64,000 nucleotides of DNA from Paenibacillaceae bacterium (GTDB taxonomy: Bacteria; Bacillota; Clostridia; Lachnospirales; Lachnospiraceae): assembly GCA_015057705.1 (NCBI GenBank), contig SVDU01000011.1, positions 1 through 64,000 on the forward strand, read 5' to 3'. Below the pieces are notes generated by a model that did no database searches, was not told the DNA's origin, and was given only the letters and a program-made list of their open reading frames with translations. The translations under genes and the position numbers were made by a program. Shown in pieces: positions 47,767 to 52,346 of the stretch (positions are counted from its first letter, which is position 1; the number at the start of each line of letters is the position of its first letter).

Positions 47767-47803
47767 ATGATAGAAAGATATAGATCAGAGGAACGTGTAT
47801 AAC

Positions 47804-49039
47804 ATGAAAAGAGTTACAGCATTTATATTAAGCTTTTTTCTGCTATTTTCCTGTTTGTGCCAGACAGTGGCAGGGCAGGAGCCGGATATAGCGGTTGCCT
47901 CGGACATGATTGTAAAAGCAGAAGAGGCCCAGGCGGTTAATACAGAAGGCGGCCCGGCCCTGCAGTCTCCAAGTGCGATTTTAATGGAAGCATCTACCGG
48001 GCAGGTCATTTACGAAAAAGATGCGGATGTAAAAAGAAGTCCTGCCAGCATCACAAAAATTATGACGCTGATCCTTATTTTTGATGCTCTGGAATCAGGA
48101 AAGATAAAGCTGACCGATGAGGTTGTGACCAGTGCCCACGCAAAATCCATGGGAGGATCCCAGGTATTTCTGGAAGAAGGGGAAGTACAGACGGTTGAAA
48201 CCCTGATCAAATGTATTGTTGTTGCGTCAGGCAATGATGCATCTGTAGCCATGGCGGAGTACATAGCAGGAACAGAGGATGAATTTGTAAAGATGATGAA
48301 TGAGCGGGCGGCAGCACTTGGGATGACCAATACCCATTTTGAAGACTGCTGCGGTCTTACAGAATCCCCTACCCATGTGACAACTGCCAGAGATATTGCA
48401 ACCATGTCCAGGGAACTGATTAATAAGTATCCACAGATTCATAACTATTCAACCATCTGGATGGAAAACATCACTCACGTGACGAAACAGGGAACGAAAG
48501 AATTTGGACTGTCAAATACCAATAAGCTTTTAAAAATGGCAACAAACTTTAATGTAACGGGTTTAAAGACCGGATCTACTTCTATTGCAAAGTATTGTCT
48601 CTCTGCAACTGCAGAAAAAGATGGTGTCCGTCTCATTGCTTCCATTATGGCAGCGCCGGATTATAAGGTGAGGTTTGCAGATGCCCAGACGCTCTTAAAC
48701 TATGGTTATGCAAACTGTAAGCTATATGAAGATAAAGAGATGCTGCCCCTTCCGGATATGATTGTAGATAACGGTGTAGACGAGATAGTTCCTTTAAAAT
48801 ACGGTGGTTCCTTTTCCTATTTAAGCTTAAAGGGAGAGGACTTTACTGCAATAGAAAGGAAACTGGAGCTTGTTCCGTCAGTGTCTGCTCCTATTGAAGA
48901 AGGCCAGCCTGCAGGAAACCTTGTATATAGTCTTGGCGGGAAAAAGATTGGCGAGGTTCCGGTTCTGACAGCAGGAGCTGTACGGGAAGCAAAATTTGGA
49001 GATTATTTAAAACGGCTTCTCCATGCGTTTAGTTTGTAG
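47804..49039 (+). CDS. D-alanyl-D-alanine carboxypeptidase (PBP5/DacA type)
   Basis: This 411-residue secreted enzyme has a signal peptide (about 1-23), a Peptidase_S11 domain with S82-I-T-K85, VASGNDASVAMAEYI (SxN) and GLKTGSTSIA (KTG), and a C-terminal PBP5-like beta domain from about 300. It ends in a short amphipathic segment (FGDYLKRLLHAFSL) typical of membrane anchoring. It trims terminal D-Ala from peptidoglycan stem peptides; in spore formers related proteins (DacB, DacF) work in the cortex. ATG 47804 was chosen; GTG 47795 is in frame but too close to GAGGA. Confidence 0.93.
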   Translation: MKRVTAFILSFFLLFSCLCQTVAGQEPDIAVASDMIVKAEEAQAVNTEGGPALQSPSAILMEASTGQVIYEKDADVKRSPASITKIMTLILIFDALESGKIKLTDEVVTSAHAKSMGGSQVFLEEGEVQTVETLIKCIVVASGNDASVAMAEYIAGTEDEFVKMMNERAAALGMTNTHFEDCCGLTESPTHVTTARDIATMSRELINKYPQIHNYSTIWMENITHVTKQGTKEFGLSNTNKLLKMATNFNVTGLKTGSTSIAKYCLSATAEKDGVRLIASIMAAPDYKVRFADAQTLLNYGYANCKLYEDKEMLPLPDMIVDNGVDEIVPLKYGGSFSYLSLKGEDFTAIERKLELVPSVSAPIEEGQPAGNLVYSLGGKKIGEVPVLTAGAVREAKFGDYLKRLLHAFSL

Positions 49040-49139: not shown

Positions 49140-49385
49140 TCATTTATTTTTTCGATACTCTCCGGGAGTCATATGAAAGGTCTCCTTAAAAATCCGGTTA
49201 AAGTGCTCTGGATTTGTATAACCAATAATTTCGCAGATGGAAGAGATACTTAAATTTGTAGTCTTAAGTGCCCGGCAGGCTTTATCCAGTATATCCCGGA
49301 TAAGCTTAGTGAAGTTCTGGCCTGTATGTTCCTTGACCAGCTTGCTGAAATGGGGTACAGAAAAGCCAAAATGTTCTGCGCGGAA
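49140..49385 (-). pseudogene. Truncated AraC-family regulator (C-terminal HTH only)
   Basis: On the minus strand about 80 codons encode the C-terminal double HTH of an AraC-family regulator: FSVPHFSKLVKEHTGQNF, LSISSICEIIGYTNPEHFNRIFK, and the classic ending MTPGEYRKNK then TGA. Upstream of the junction near 49382 the frame meets a stop at once and no sensor domain is present. The gene has lost everything before the first HTH, and no start or ribosome site remains. Confidence 0.85.
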
Positions 49386-49582
49386 TCAGCAAACAGCCTC
49401 TTCTGATTGAGTATATCAGAAAACATGTGGAAAAATTCTGCAATGAAAATCCTCTGCGCAAACTGTCTCCTTATTTACCAAGACCGGAGGTAGTTGCCTG
49501 CCGCTATTTTAATGATTCGAATCTGATTGGAGCCCTGTATCATTATAGGAAGAAAAAAAACATTGATTTTATATTACACTGA
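49382..49582 (+). pseudogene. Truncated ROK-family kinase (C-terminus only)
   Basis: On the plus strand 66 codons from 49382 to the TGA at 49580-49582 read GISKQPLLIEYIRKHVEKF, then PEVVACRYFNDSNLIGALYHY. That resembles the C-terminal end of ROK sugar kinases, which have a GG-I-S motif and a final LGN-D-A-GLIGA segment. There is no start codon or upstream domain. It abuts the AraC fragment on the other strand, so a deletion probably removed the 5' parts of two divergent genes. Confidence 0.75.
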
Positions 49583-49659: not shown

Positions 49660-49688
49660 TTGACAACTAATATTATATAGCATATAAT
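49660..49688 (+). promoter_or_regulatory. Consensus promoter of the PspC-PadR operon
   Basis: TTGACA (49660-49665) and TATAAT (49683-49688), both perfect, 17 bp apart. The -10 lies inside the first operator dyad. Confidence 0.92.
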
Positions 49689-49714
49689 AACACTATATTA
49701 TACAACATATAATA
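49670..49714 (+). promoter_or_regulatory. Twin 20-bp dyad operator, probable PadR site
   Basis: Two near-identical dyads: 49670-49689 and 49695-49714. Each is ATATTAT, 4 variable bases, CATATAATA, and their centres are 25 bp apart. The first covers the spacer and -10; the second covers the start region. The second gene of the operon is a PadR regulator, and PadR proteins bind such AT-rich dyads in their own promoters, so autoregulation is the likely reading. Confidence 0.75.
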
Positions 49715-49772
49715 TAAAAACATAAATAATATTATAGATGAAAATTAAAAGTCAGAGGAAAGGTGGTCAATC

Positions 49773-50021
49773 GTGGGAGCAAAGCGTTTGTACCGTTCAG
49801 TGAAGAACAGAGTTTTATGTGGAGTTTGTGGAGGAATTGGTGAGTATCTGGCTGTGGATCCGGTTATGATAAGGCTGATATGGATTCTGCTTATGCTGTT
49901 TCAGACATGGAGGCATTTGTTTCACCTGATAACCGGGGCATCCTTAATCGGCGGAAGTATTGCCATTTATATACTTGCAGCAGTGATCATACCAAAGGAT
50001 CCTTCGGGAGGCAGAGAGTAA
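49773..50021 (+). CDS. PspC-domain protein (first of two)
   Basis: This 82-residue protein has a PspC domain: [34 protein letters not shown], then a second membrane segment (about 58-73) ending AAVIIPKD. PspC proteins are small envelope-stress membrane factors. The start is GTG 49773 with AAAGGTGG upstream. It heads a five-gene operon whose last gene is another PspC protein. Confidence 0.92.
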   Translation: MGAKRLYRSVKNRVLCGVCGGIGEYLAVDPVMIRLIWILLMLFQTWRHLFHLITGASLIGGSIAIYILAAVIIPKDPSGGRE

Positions 50022-50056
50022 AGGAATACCCAGGCAGAAAAGATAGGAGTGGACGT

Positions 50057-50377
50057 ATGGTTTTTAACACAGGAGCAGCATTATTGGACGCCATTGTCCT
50101 GGCGGTCGTATCAAAAGACCAGGAGGGAACTTACGGCTACAAGATCACCCAGGACGTAAGAAATGTTATTGAGATTTCAGAATCAACGCTTTATCCTGTT
50201 CTTCGAAGACTTCAGAAGGAAGAATGTCTGGAAGTATATGATCTTGCATACGATGGAAGGAACCGCAGGTATTATAAGATTACGGAGAAAGGGCGGATAC
50301 AGTTAAATCTCTATAAAAGCGAATGGGCAGGTTATTCGCAGAAGATATCCCGAATTTTTGAGGAGGCACATATATGA
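50057..50377 (+). CDS. PadR-family transcriptional regulator
   Basis: This 106-residue winged-helix regulator of the PadR type has ATLLD-like start (GAALLDAIVLAVV), TYGYKITQDV, SESTLYPVLRRLQKEECLEV and a wing segment GRNRRYYKITEKG. PadR proteins repress linked membrane or stress genes until a ligand binds. The twin dyads in the promoter are its probable binding sites. ATG 50057 with AGGAGTGG was chosen. It overlaps the next gene by 4 nt. Confidence 0.93.
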   Translation: MVFNTGAALLDAIVLAVVSKDQEGTYGYKITQDVRNVIEISESTLYPVLRRLQKEECLEVYDLAYDGRNRRYYKITEKGRIQLNLYKSEWAGYSQKISRIFEEAHI

Positions 50378-51120
50378 ACAGGGATGAGTTTATGAGAGAG
50401 CTGGAATATCTGCTGGCGGATATTCCTGATGAAGAAAAAGAAGATGCAATTGAATATTACAGAGATTATCTGGAAGAAGCAGGACCGGAGAATGAGGATT
50501 CTGTAATACGGGAGTTTGGAAGCCCGGAACGGATTGCAGCCATGATCCGGGCGGATATGAACGGACATTTAAAAGAAGGCGGAGAGTTCACGGAAAGTGG
50601 TTATCAGGATGAGCGCTTCCGGGATCCCAATTACCAGATGGCAAAGCGCTACGATCTCCCGGAGGTTACCGTTCAGCCGGAAAAAGACAGCGGGTTTTAT
50701 GAACAGGGAAGTGAACCTGTCCGAAAAAAACGGGGGGATAACAGGCGTACGATTAAAATTATTTTATGGATTGTTCTGATCATTGCAGCTTCTCCCATGC
50801 TTTTTGGCATTGGAGGCGGAATACTGGGCATATTGGCAGGTCTGATAGGAGTGCTGTTTGCAGCGGTGGTTGCAATAGGAGCAGTCACGTTTGCCTTCCT
50901 GGCAGCAGGATTTGCTCTGGCGGTAGCTGGTTTTACTACCATGATCATTCACCCTCTGGACGGAATATTGCTGCTGGGTCTGGGGATACTGATTCTTGGT
51001 CTTGGTCTTGTTTCACTGGCCGTTTGCGGTGTGTTTTATGGAAAGTTTCTACCGTTTCTGTTTCGAAGCTGTATCGATCTGTTTAACCGGTTGTTACACG
51101 GAAGGAGGGCGCGGACATGA
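50374..51120 (+). CDS. HAAS/DUF1700-domain membrane protein
   Basis: This 248-residue protein has an N-terminal HAAS domain (FMRELEYLLADIPDEEKEDAIEYY), which in Firmicutes usually goes with a PadR regulator. A polar linker follows, then four or more Gly/Ala-rich membrane spans from about 125 to 230. HAAS proteins are thought to pass a signal to or from the PadR protein or adjoining membrane proteins. It overlaps padR and the DUF4097 gene by 4 nt on each side. Confidence 0.88.
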   Translation: MNRDEFMRELEYLLADIPDEEKEDAIEYYRDYLEEAGPENEDSVIREFGSPERIAAMIRADMNGHLKEGGEFTESGYQDERFRDPNYQMAKRYDLPEVTVQPEKDSGFYEQGSEPVRKKRGDNRRTIKIILWIVLIIAASPMLFGIGGGILGILAGLIGVLFAAVVAIGAVTFAFLAAGFALAVAGFTTMIIHPLDGILLLGLGILILGLGLVSLAVCGVFYGKFLPFLFRSCIDLFNRLLHGRRART

Positions 51121-52010
51121 ACAAATTTATGAAAAAATGTGTGATTGCAGGAATAATCCTTGTAGTTGCGGGCGGTATTATGGCTGCGACAGCGGTAACC
51201 TATGGAGCTGATCTTCGGGACATTGTTCCAAGGGGAAGCGGCTTCTGGAAAGATACATTTTCTGATTTCTCATTTGAGGATCTGGATTATGAAAACCAGC
51301 CAAAAGGTTGGGTAGATTATACTGATTTTAATATTGAAGTACCGGAAGAAAAAGGCCAGCAGATTTATACCACCGGTACAGCAAAAAGCCTGAGTGTAGA
51401 TATCAGAGCAGGAAGGGTTTTTATAGTAGAGGATCCAGCTGTAAGTGAGTTAACCATATATTGCAACAAAAAGGATGGTAACTGGAATCTGAAAGATGAG
51501 AATGATGAGTTGGATCTGACAACCGGGAGCGGGTTCATGTCAGATGACACGGATCTTGTGATGACGATCAGCGTGCCCCAGGGGTATCGTTTTTCAGATG
51601 TGGATTTAGCGGTTTCCAAGAAGAGAGGGATGCATGGTCTGGATCCAATTATAGCCTGCCGGTCCATATCTGCTGATGACATGAGTCTTAATGTAAAGGC
51701 GGGTGCACTTTCCGTGAGTAAGGGTAATGTAGGCGATTTAGACATTAAATGCAGCGTTGGTGCAGTGGAATATACCGGTACAACCACCGGTGATATTAAC
51801 GGAGATTGCAAAGTAGGTGCCGTCCTGCTGCTTCTTTCAGGCAAAAAGGAAGATTACAATTACAAGATTCAGTCAAAGGTTGGAGGAATAAAAATCGCAG
51901 ATGAGCAGATGGCAGCCATTGCCGGCAAAGATAGCTGGGATTATTCCGCCAGTAAGGACATGAATTTAGATTGCAGCACAGGTGGGATAGAAGTAAAATT
52001 TTATGAATAA
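51117..52010 (+). CDS. DUF4097-family adhesin-like protein with N-terminal membrane span
   Basis: This 297-residue protein has a membrane span (about 8-29) and then an extracellular domain with repeating short beta strands (LSVDIRAGRVFIVED; MSLNVKAGALSVSKGNVGDLDIKCSVGAVEY), typical of the DUF4097/DUF4098 beta-helix-like family. The family is often found in HAAS/PadR/PspC operons. Its function is unknown. It overlaps the HAAS gene by 4 nt. Confidence 0.87.
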   Translation: MNKFMKKCVIAGIILVVAGGIMAATAVTYGADLRDIVPRGSGFWKDTFSDFSFEDLDYENQPKGWVDYTDFNIEVPEEKGQQIYTTGTAKSLSVDIRAGRVFIVEDPAVSELTIYCNKKDGNWNLKDENDELDLTTGSGFMSDDTDLVMTISVPQGYRFSDVDLAVSKKRGMHGLDPIIACRSISADDMSLNVKAGALSVSKGNVGDLDIKCSVGAVEYTGTTTGDINGDCKVGAVLLLLSGKKEDYNYKIQSKVGGIKIADEQMAAIAGKDSWDYSASKDMNLDCSTGGIEVKFYE

Positions 52011-52048
52011 TAGATTAGCATGGTGACAACAAGAGAGGAGATTAAGAC

Positions 52049-52228
52049 ATGGAGAAAAAATTATACCGTTCTGATACGGACAAAATGCTGTGTGGTGTAT
52101 GTGGTGGAATTGCAGAATATTTTGATGTAGACCCTACGATAATCCGCCTTTTATGGGCAATTCTTGCCTGTACGGGTTCCGGAATTGTAGCCTATATCAT
52201 TGCAGCCGTGATTATACCAAAAAGATAA
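52049..52228 (+). CDS. PspC-domain protein (second, 59 residues)
   Basis: A short gene of 59 codons: [20 protein letters not shown], then [21 protein letters not shown] and a last segment ending AAVIIPKR. It is a close paralogue of the PspC protein that heads the operon, but lacks the ~20-residue loop between the two hydrophobic segments. AGAGAGGAG lies upstream of the ATG. It ends the operon; a terminator follows. Confidence 0.9.
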
Positions 52229-52241
52229 CGTAAAACGAAGA

Positions 52242-52272
52242 AGAGAGAAGCTTTTTTGCTTCTTTCTTTTTT
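52242..52272 (+). terminator. Terminator after the PspC-PadR operon
   Basis: AGAGAGAAGC (52242-52251), loop of six Ts, GCTTCTTTCT (52258-52267) with one G-U pair, then a T-run. Confidence 0.82.
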
Positions 52273-52346
52273 GTTTTAAAAAATGGAGTTTACTTCCATT
52301 TGAAACGGGCATACTCTTTTTAGATTTATGAAAGGAGAACGACAGT

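Follow-up and report, generated by a model that had tools for sequence, protein, structure and literature searches.

How is an operon controlled that encodes a small PadR-type regulator among predicted membrane proteins, and to what does it respond? This question is raised by a locus in the first 64,000 nucleotides (nt) of contig SVDU01000011.1 (assembly GCA_015057705.1, recorded as a Paenibacillaceae bacterium), the stretch that we analysed and call the window. Here, five genes of a predicted operon follow one promoter in the order PspC, PadR, HAAS, Toastrack (DUF4097)-like, and PspC. We found that a palindrome in the promoter is kept in nearly all the related operons examined within the bacterial family, as judged from sequence comparison, and we consider it likely that the locus is a self-contained, autorepressed HAAS-PadR membrane-stress operon. 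The gene set is known; the new part appears to be the operator and a rule that links it to the recognition helix of PadR.

The promoter and its two palindromes (dyads) are placed as follows.

49660..49665, plus strand: -35 box TTGACA, from the sequence and a promoter match
49671..49689, no strand: dyad 1, TATTATA-N5-TATAATA, TATTATATAGCATATAATA, exact match centred on 49680, likely primary operator
49683..49688, plus strand: -10 box TATAAT, the right arm of dyad 1, from the sequence and a promoter match
49696..49714, no strand: dyad 2, TATTATACAACATATAATA, exact match centred on 49705, likely secondary operator over the expected start region

The initial annotation described a consensus promoter with two dyads 25 base pairs (bp) apart over the -10 box and the start region, and this description was correct. 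The sigma-70 promoter TTGACA-17-TATAAT is perfect (12 of 12 consensus letters, spacer of 17 bp), and both dyads, with centres separated by 25 bp, are exact to TATTATA-N5-TATAATA. No other exact copy exists in the window, and the 4.53-Mb genome has three exact sites including these two. With up to two mismatches, the window contained three matches versus a mean of 0.58 over 100 shuffles, one of which reached three. With up to one mismatch, the genome as a whole showed no excess (14 sites versus 15 for the reversed-pattern control); thus, the signal lies in the two exact dyads and their position rather than in loose copies. Neither Rfam at gathering scores nor a tRNA scan gave a match in the whole window.

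Related loci were gathered by means of the HAAS protein (61 of 116 genomes matched), so the dyad had no influence on the choice of loci. PadR, HAAS, Toastrack, and PspC were detected with purpose-built profiles, and the dyad was surveyed as TATTATA-N5-TATARTA in the 600 nt that precede the PadR domain, one mismatch at most being allowed. Removal of repeats reduced 212 PadR records to 189. Seven of 129 HAAS records had no adjoining PadR (L108, L114, L118, L120, L122, L123, and L124) and stand outside the dyad counts. The dyad was present upstream in 55 of the 60 non-redundant PadR-HAAS records found by HAAS, including as examined two records with less than 100 nt upstream, and in all four further PadR-HAAS records from the named collection. 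When the regions upstream of the 60 were letter-shuffled, 8 of 1200 contained it. As a second control, six of these genomes supplied PadRs for which the retrieved sequence, reaching about 500 nt downstream, showed no HAAS. The dyad preceded none of 33 such PadRs; these were left from 54 matches after removal of 11 known HAAS-linked PadRs and 9 under the family cut-off, and after one of the 34 fetched (L231) proved to be HAAS-linked.

Sorted by recognition helix, the same HAAS-found, non-redundant PadRs had the dyad in 58 of 58 cases with STLYPV(L/M) and in one of six with other helices; 54 of the 58, those from the genome search, cover 30 genus codes. A TTGACA-like box stands exactly 11 nt ahead of the dyad in 46 of the 58 and is shifted by one base in some others. 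The consensus of 43 aligned sites is ATATTATAY-N3-RTATAATAT. All 43 share the same left arm, a segment outside the promoter elements. The right arm has A or G at one position and a single further change, and variation is concentrated in the centre; because these sites were picked at no more than one mismatch, fixed arms were favoured. One letter of the -35 TTGACA varies among the 43 sites, which were chosen partly by this box, and the rest are fixed. The promoter-plus-dyad pattern with up to one mismatch matched 178 of 397 genomes of the family, versus 16 matches (summed) for the reversed control. The 42 exact promoter-dyad sites listed come from 40 genomes, nearly all of which were selected because they have one; matched by eye, 38 precede a same-strand PadR match, two are at contig ends, and two are elsewhere. 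It is therefore extremely unlikely that the dyads are A+T-rich promoter sequence that is palindromic by chance: the half-sites are pure A/T and contain the -10 box, and at one mismatch such dyads do not outnumber the reversed control in the genome, but the shuffles, the control PadRs, the left arm that is invariant outside any promoter element, and windows upstream of the promoter (dyad in 0 of 79) argue against it.

We also drew genomes from the whole class; HAAS was found in 112 of 291, and the 59 loci fetched gave 50 non-redundant PadR-HAAS records. At many of the loci that lack the window's dyad, another palindrome occupies the same place and again runs into a -10-like box. In the loci from which the patterns were read, PadRs with SESTLYPIL have TACTAT-N7-ATAGTA in 11 of 11 cases (11 of 16 when the KEST, NEST, and KDST variants are included), and those with STLYTIL (SESTLYTIL) have TACTTC-N7-GATGTA in 9 of 9. 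The former palindrome is, by its letters, a close variant of the window's dyad; the window's pattern matches one of 16 STLYPIL records. A held-out set came from another order (23 of 31 genomes matched, 25 loci). The counts from it concern helix versus operator only, and one locus (L258) had no helix by the expression used. In the unused loci, the expected operator was present in 14 of 14 STLYTIL cases (12 genomes), 2 of 2 STLYPIL cases, and 2 of 2 STLYPVL cases, and at none of these did a second pattern match within one mismatch. Within a single genome (G039), two modules have the window's operator, and one SESTLYPIL module has its own. These comparisons give good evidence that operator and PadR belong together. 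Elsewhere, none of the four operator patterns matches three loci with KESTLYPIL or NESTLYPIL PadRs (L104, L163, and L191), upstream of which inspection by eye showed different AT-rich repeats, of TATATA type.

Could the dyad be bound by some other, unlinked regulator, while PadR acts elsewhere? Two of the 42 listed exact sites have no PadR match nearby, and two more are at contig ends. We consider this possibility very unlikely, since the operator class tracks the PadR helix class even inside one genome and 38 of the 42 sites precede a PadR.

In the window's own genome, the extended site with up to two mismatches gave 11 forward and 12 reverse matches versus 6 and 7 for the reversed control. 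When the promoter box was placed and one mismatch allowed, two sites remained, dyad 1 and C35:9321, the latter with an asymmetric centre. These scans of the genome gave no convincing target outside the operon, and we read the regulon here as the operon alone, which is not proven. In other species, two exact sites with symmetric centres do not precede a PadR. In L125 (G060:C83), from 3001 onward, the promoter-operator site is followed by a family-2 glycosyltransferase gene, an unassigned gene, and a gene for a lysylphosphatidylglycerol-synthase-type membrane protein. In L138 (G377:C57), on the minus strand at about 5000, it is followed by genes for a C_GCAxxG_C_C putative redox protein and a DUF975 protein, and partial repeats of the site were seen downstream by eye. 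As candidate extra targets, L125 and L138 are a lead, not a result. The site in L141, exact to the pattern with an asymmetric centre, and the site in L263, within a reading frame, were both read as chance; in L261 and L262 the contig ends just after the site, leaving no downstream gene to judge.

The genes of the predicted operon and the element after it are the following.

49773..50021, plus strand: front PspC (PspC-1), 82 amino acids (aa), GTG start, 16-residue insert relative to PspC-2; Pfam PspC over cut-off
50057..50377, plus strand: PadR, small winged-helix regulator, 106 aa, helix SESTLYPVL; PF03551 at 60.1 bits, over cut-off
50374..51120, plus strand: HAAS protein with transmembrane part, 248 aa, HAAS domain 5-56, GSP (GxP) motif, hydrophobic helices from about 123; PF22564 at 46.7 bits, over cut-off
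51117..52010, plus strand: Toastrack/DUF4097-like beta protein, predicted membrane-anchored, 297 aa; DUF4097 under cut-off
52049..52228, plus strand: rear PspC (PspC-2), 59 aa; Pfam PspC over cut-off
52234..52275, plus strand: terminator-like hairpin with T run, 3' of PspC-2; folding energy -23.3 kcal/mol, z -5.8

As the initial annotation stated, three of the five genes are joined by 4-nt overlaps, ATGA at 50374-50377 (PadR/HAAS) and at 51117-51120 (HAAS/Toastrack-like); the gaps are 35 nt between PspC-1 and PadR and 38 nt between the Toastrack-like gene and PspC-2. The locus has the features of a HAAS-PadR module: a stand-alone PadR-like winged helix-turn-helix protein, HAAS with three helices and GxP, PspC alongside, and no pspA. 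PspA/IM30, the protein of the classical, PspA-based PSP (phage shock protein) response, is missing here, as PF04012 had no match at E 0.001 in this 98%-complete genome.

The length of PadR, 106 aa, agrees with the roughly 100 residues of the small repressors (PadR-s2), and the tyrosines of TYGY and TLYP, matched by eye to residues named in PMC6457526, are invariant in 11 sequences. The HAAS domain has predicted helices at 3-13, 19-48, and 51-62, taken from a model that is poor overall (predicted template-modelling score, pTM, 0.31) and was used for these three N-terminal helices only, and it is joined to a long hydrophobic part. In its GxP motif, S50 and P51 are invariant in 17 sequences, and G49 is the consensus but not invariant. 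A sequence search against solved structures at E 0.1 found no relative of HAAS. In the Toastrack-like protein, DUF4097 was the sole Pfam family found (19.6 bits versus a cut-off of 22.9, E 0.00063), and the predicted beta structure resembles solved putative adhesins (best E 7.5e-8), with low TM-scores of 0.25-0.58 for the 15 best. This protein has a single N-terminal hydrophobic stretch with lysines ahead of it. Membrane stretches are oriented by the positive-inside rule, and the lysines thus suggest that the Toastrack-like domain is outside the cell. PadR is the least variable protein, with 75-98% identity to the window's protein in 10 relatives, compared with 29-97% for HAAS (16 relatives) and 18-94% for the Toastrack-like protein (21 relatives), the ranges coming from differing samples. 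The window's HAAS protein is 96-98% identical to those of loci recorded as Lacrimispora, Hungatella sp., and Paenibacillaceae (two metagenome-assembled genomes), all of one genus code; we therefore call the host Lacrimispora-like.

Other genes and HAAS loci were noted in passing. Upstream of the operon are a D-alanyl-D-alanine carboxypeptidase gene (47795-49039; Peptidase_S11, 241 bits) and, on the minus strand at 49145-49400, a remnant of an AraC-type helix-turn-helix gene, a C-terminal piece behind an in-frame stop (labelled by eye). A second HAAS protein of 162 aa is encoded in the same genome (L201, 2704-3192, minus strand; G000:C35, about 90433). It has no PadR among the adjoining frames, and two genes resembling NlpC/P60-type cell-wall hydrolases were recognised by eye next door; similar loci in G006, G008, and G014 have no PadR neighbour either. 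HAAS of the L201 type departs from the published statement that PadR always neighbours HAAS. In two genomes of one genus (L027 and L028), the HAAS match is in two pieces, one with an in-frame stop.

The two PspC proteins, the only PspC matches in the genome, scored 69.8 and 93.7 bits against Pfam PspC, both over the cut-off, and share 47% identity across an alignment of 72 columns, including 16 gap columns. Hence the operon does begin and end with paralogous PspC proteins, as had been noted. This double frame and the twin operator had been taken to suggest a complete envelope-stress circuit, and a survey of related operons for the twin dyad had been proposed. In our survey, a second dyad (15-75 nt downstream, at most one mismatch) was present in 40 of 83 STLYPV-type operons with the promoter-embedded dyad, a set that includes dyad-chosen loci and the window's own operon. 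An equal span upstream of the promoter, taken as control, had a dyad in 0 of 79. The spacings range from 17 to 33 bp, mostly 20-21 (12 operons), 25 (13), 28 (3), and 32-33 bp (9), so that no single helical phase is kept. The twin operator is thus neither unique nor required. The second dyad occurs in 23 of 25 operons with a front PspC versus 17 of 58 without, a contrast limited by the close relationship of the front-PspC operons. The front PspC proteins cluster in a single supported group (25 rows, with the insert); a further call, L117, is placed elsewhere. The window's genus accounts for 22 of the records with a front PspC; the others come from two further genus codes and from a record named Hungatella, itself perhaps a member of one of these codes. 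By this distribution, the double PspC frame represents an addition that the window's genus shares with a few neighbours.

Dyad 2 might instead be a second start site or a leader element left by duplication, with no operator function. The variable spacing (17 to 33 bp) and the 43 of 83 operons without a second dyad at one mismatch fit this explanation. We regard it as rather unlikely, since no -35 box stands at the required distance from dyad 2 in the window, and 40 of 83 operons likewise have a second dyad, versus 0 of 79 control windows.

Several described systems resemble this operon; they are compared here as far as the available portions of the papers allow. The closest in gene content are the HAAS-PadR systems of PMC11237479 (mSystems 2024), where PadR-HAAS-Toastrack-PspC neighbourhoods with a signalling role were published and HAAS-PadR pairs were proposed, from gene neighbourhoods, as an alternative to two-component systems. 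The same domain types share one neighbourhood without pspA, HAAS is fused to a multi-helix membrane part, PspC stands alone, and the GxP motif is present. The differences are that neither an operator nor a frame of two PspC genes appears in the portions available, and that the authors argue for Toastrack inside the cell, whereas the window's protein suggests the reverse. In Listeria, the LltR-lmo0600-lmo0601 operon likewise combines PadR, DUF1700, and DUF4097 genes under autorepression, and their expression goes up about 100-150 fold when the repressor is mutated (PMC6624303); as listed there, the operon has no PspC gene, and the portions available state no operator sequence. The claim of an undescribed envelope-stress circuit was wrong in part: comparison supports a probably autorepressed module, but the neighbourhood with its signalling role and the Listeria operon were already in print. 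A literature search, which covered subscription journals thinly, found no account of the operator or of a helix-operator rule for HAAS-linked PadRs.

Three other systems are more distant. Elizabethkingia vsr1-ORF551 also has evidence for self-repression, but it is a two-gene system in a Gram-negative organism, upstream of which the authors report finding no PadR site, according to the part available (PMC10812688). In the pneumococcal ptvRABC operon, the repressor PtvR is tied to vancomycin tolerance (PMC8359209, PMC12029793, PMC11034029); the operon is also assigned to the VraSR regulon (PMC11034029). The small PadR repressors bcPadR1 (BC4206-BC4207) and LftR act on their own promoter regions and have the TLYP helix motif, but the motif reported is ATGT-N8-10-ACAT or degenerate forms (PMC3506622, PMC6457526), BC4207 is an unspecified membrane protein, and LftR controls the LieAB transporter.

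From these data we propose how the switch might work. PadR very probably binds the dyads, and repression of the operon by PadR is nearly as probable; the dyad conservation, the pairing of helix and operator, and the precedent of LltR (PMC6624303) speak for autorepression. A membrane-stress module that is probably autorepressed, through an operator spanning the -10 box and the start region, is well supported by comparison. In unstressed cells, a PadR dimer would sit on dyad 1 and cover the -10 box, and a second dimer would sit on dyad 2 over the start region, so that RNA polymerase could not use the promoter. The signal could well be envelope damage, to which we give slightly better than an even chance. 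The HAAS protein, acting with the Toastrack-like protein and PspC, would perceive a disturbance of the membrane, and its HAAS domain would then bind or reshape PadR, which would leave the operator. Relief through HAAS, as proposed in PMC11237479, is a tentative step that we place a little short of even. The derepressed operon would yield more of its own membrane proteins and stabilise the membrane, and newly made PadR would reset the switch by negative feedback.

Another explanation keeps autorepression at the dyads but lets PadR sense a small molecule in its dimer pocket, like LmrR and LftR, with HAAS, the Toastrack-like protein, and PspC as output only. Among solved structures, those nearest to PadR in sequence are PadR proteins of comparable length, ethidium bromide binds to LftR, which contains a ligand cavity (PMC6457526), and LmrR is described as drug-responsive (PMC6624303). 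However, a Toastrack-type gene follows in all 60 HAAS-found records (and in 36 of the 50 class-wide records), and the operon itself contains no pump gene. This explanation is rather unlikely.

Several results weigh against the autorepressed membrane-stress operon and its helix rule. The window's dyad was found in 8 of 50 class-wide records outside the family. GTIYPLL PadRs have their pattern, TACCTT-N7-AAGGTA, in just 4 of 11 cases, and the second, third, and fourth patterns were derived from the very loci in which they were then counted, only the other-order set being held out. The SESTLYPIL pattern also matches 33 of 93 STLYPVL records within one mismatch. On the PadR tree, from which PadRs with less than 50 nt upstream were left out, the operator class changes four times (12 if unclassified rows form a class) and the helix changes from P to T once, and tests of helix versus operator on independent pairs had one and two pairs only, too few events. 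With so few switches, the covariation is at the level of clades and not assignable to residues, and for which PadR residues decide the operator class the evidence is weak. From the literature, in the portions available, no inducer was identified for LltR (PMC6624303), bcPadR1 binding in vitro was unaffected by AS-48 (PMC3506622), and the window's dyad, compared by eye, does not fit the small-PadR motif ATGT-N8-10-ACAT (PMC3506622).

More broadly, clostridial HAAS-PadR modules may share a promoter-fused palindrome whose right arm is the -10 box and whose arms change with the PadR helix; the Lacrimispora/Hungatella lineage would have gained a front, insert-bearing PspC and a second operator, and a few species would have put the site before other genes. 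We judge the chances of this wider picture to be even. If true, it would provide a readable protein-DNA code for many uncharacterised HAAS-PadR operons, and the case with the glycosyltransferase and the lysylphosphatidylglycerol-synthase-type protein would expose an envelope-modifying output. An operator that is fused to the -10 box and tied to the helix class predicts the repressor site, what a reporter should contain, and candidate genes of the circuit. As the conserved palindrome in the promoter is the probable PadR site, the switch is directly testable, and a plain reporter experiment could address which signals these membrane modules perceive and what function they serve.

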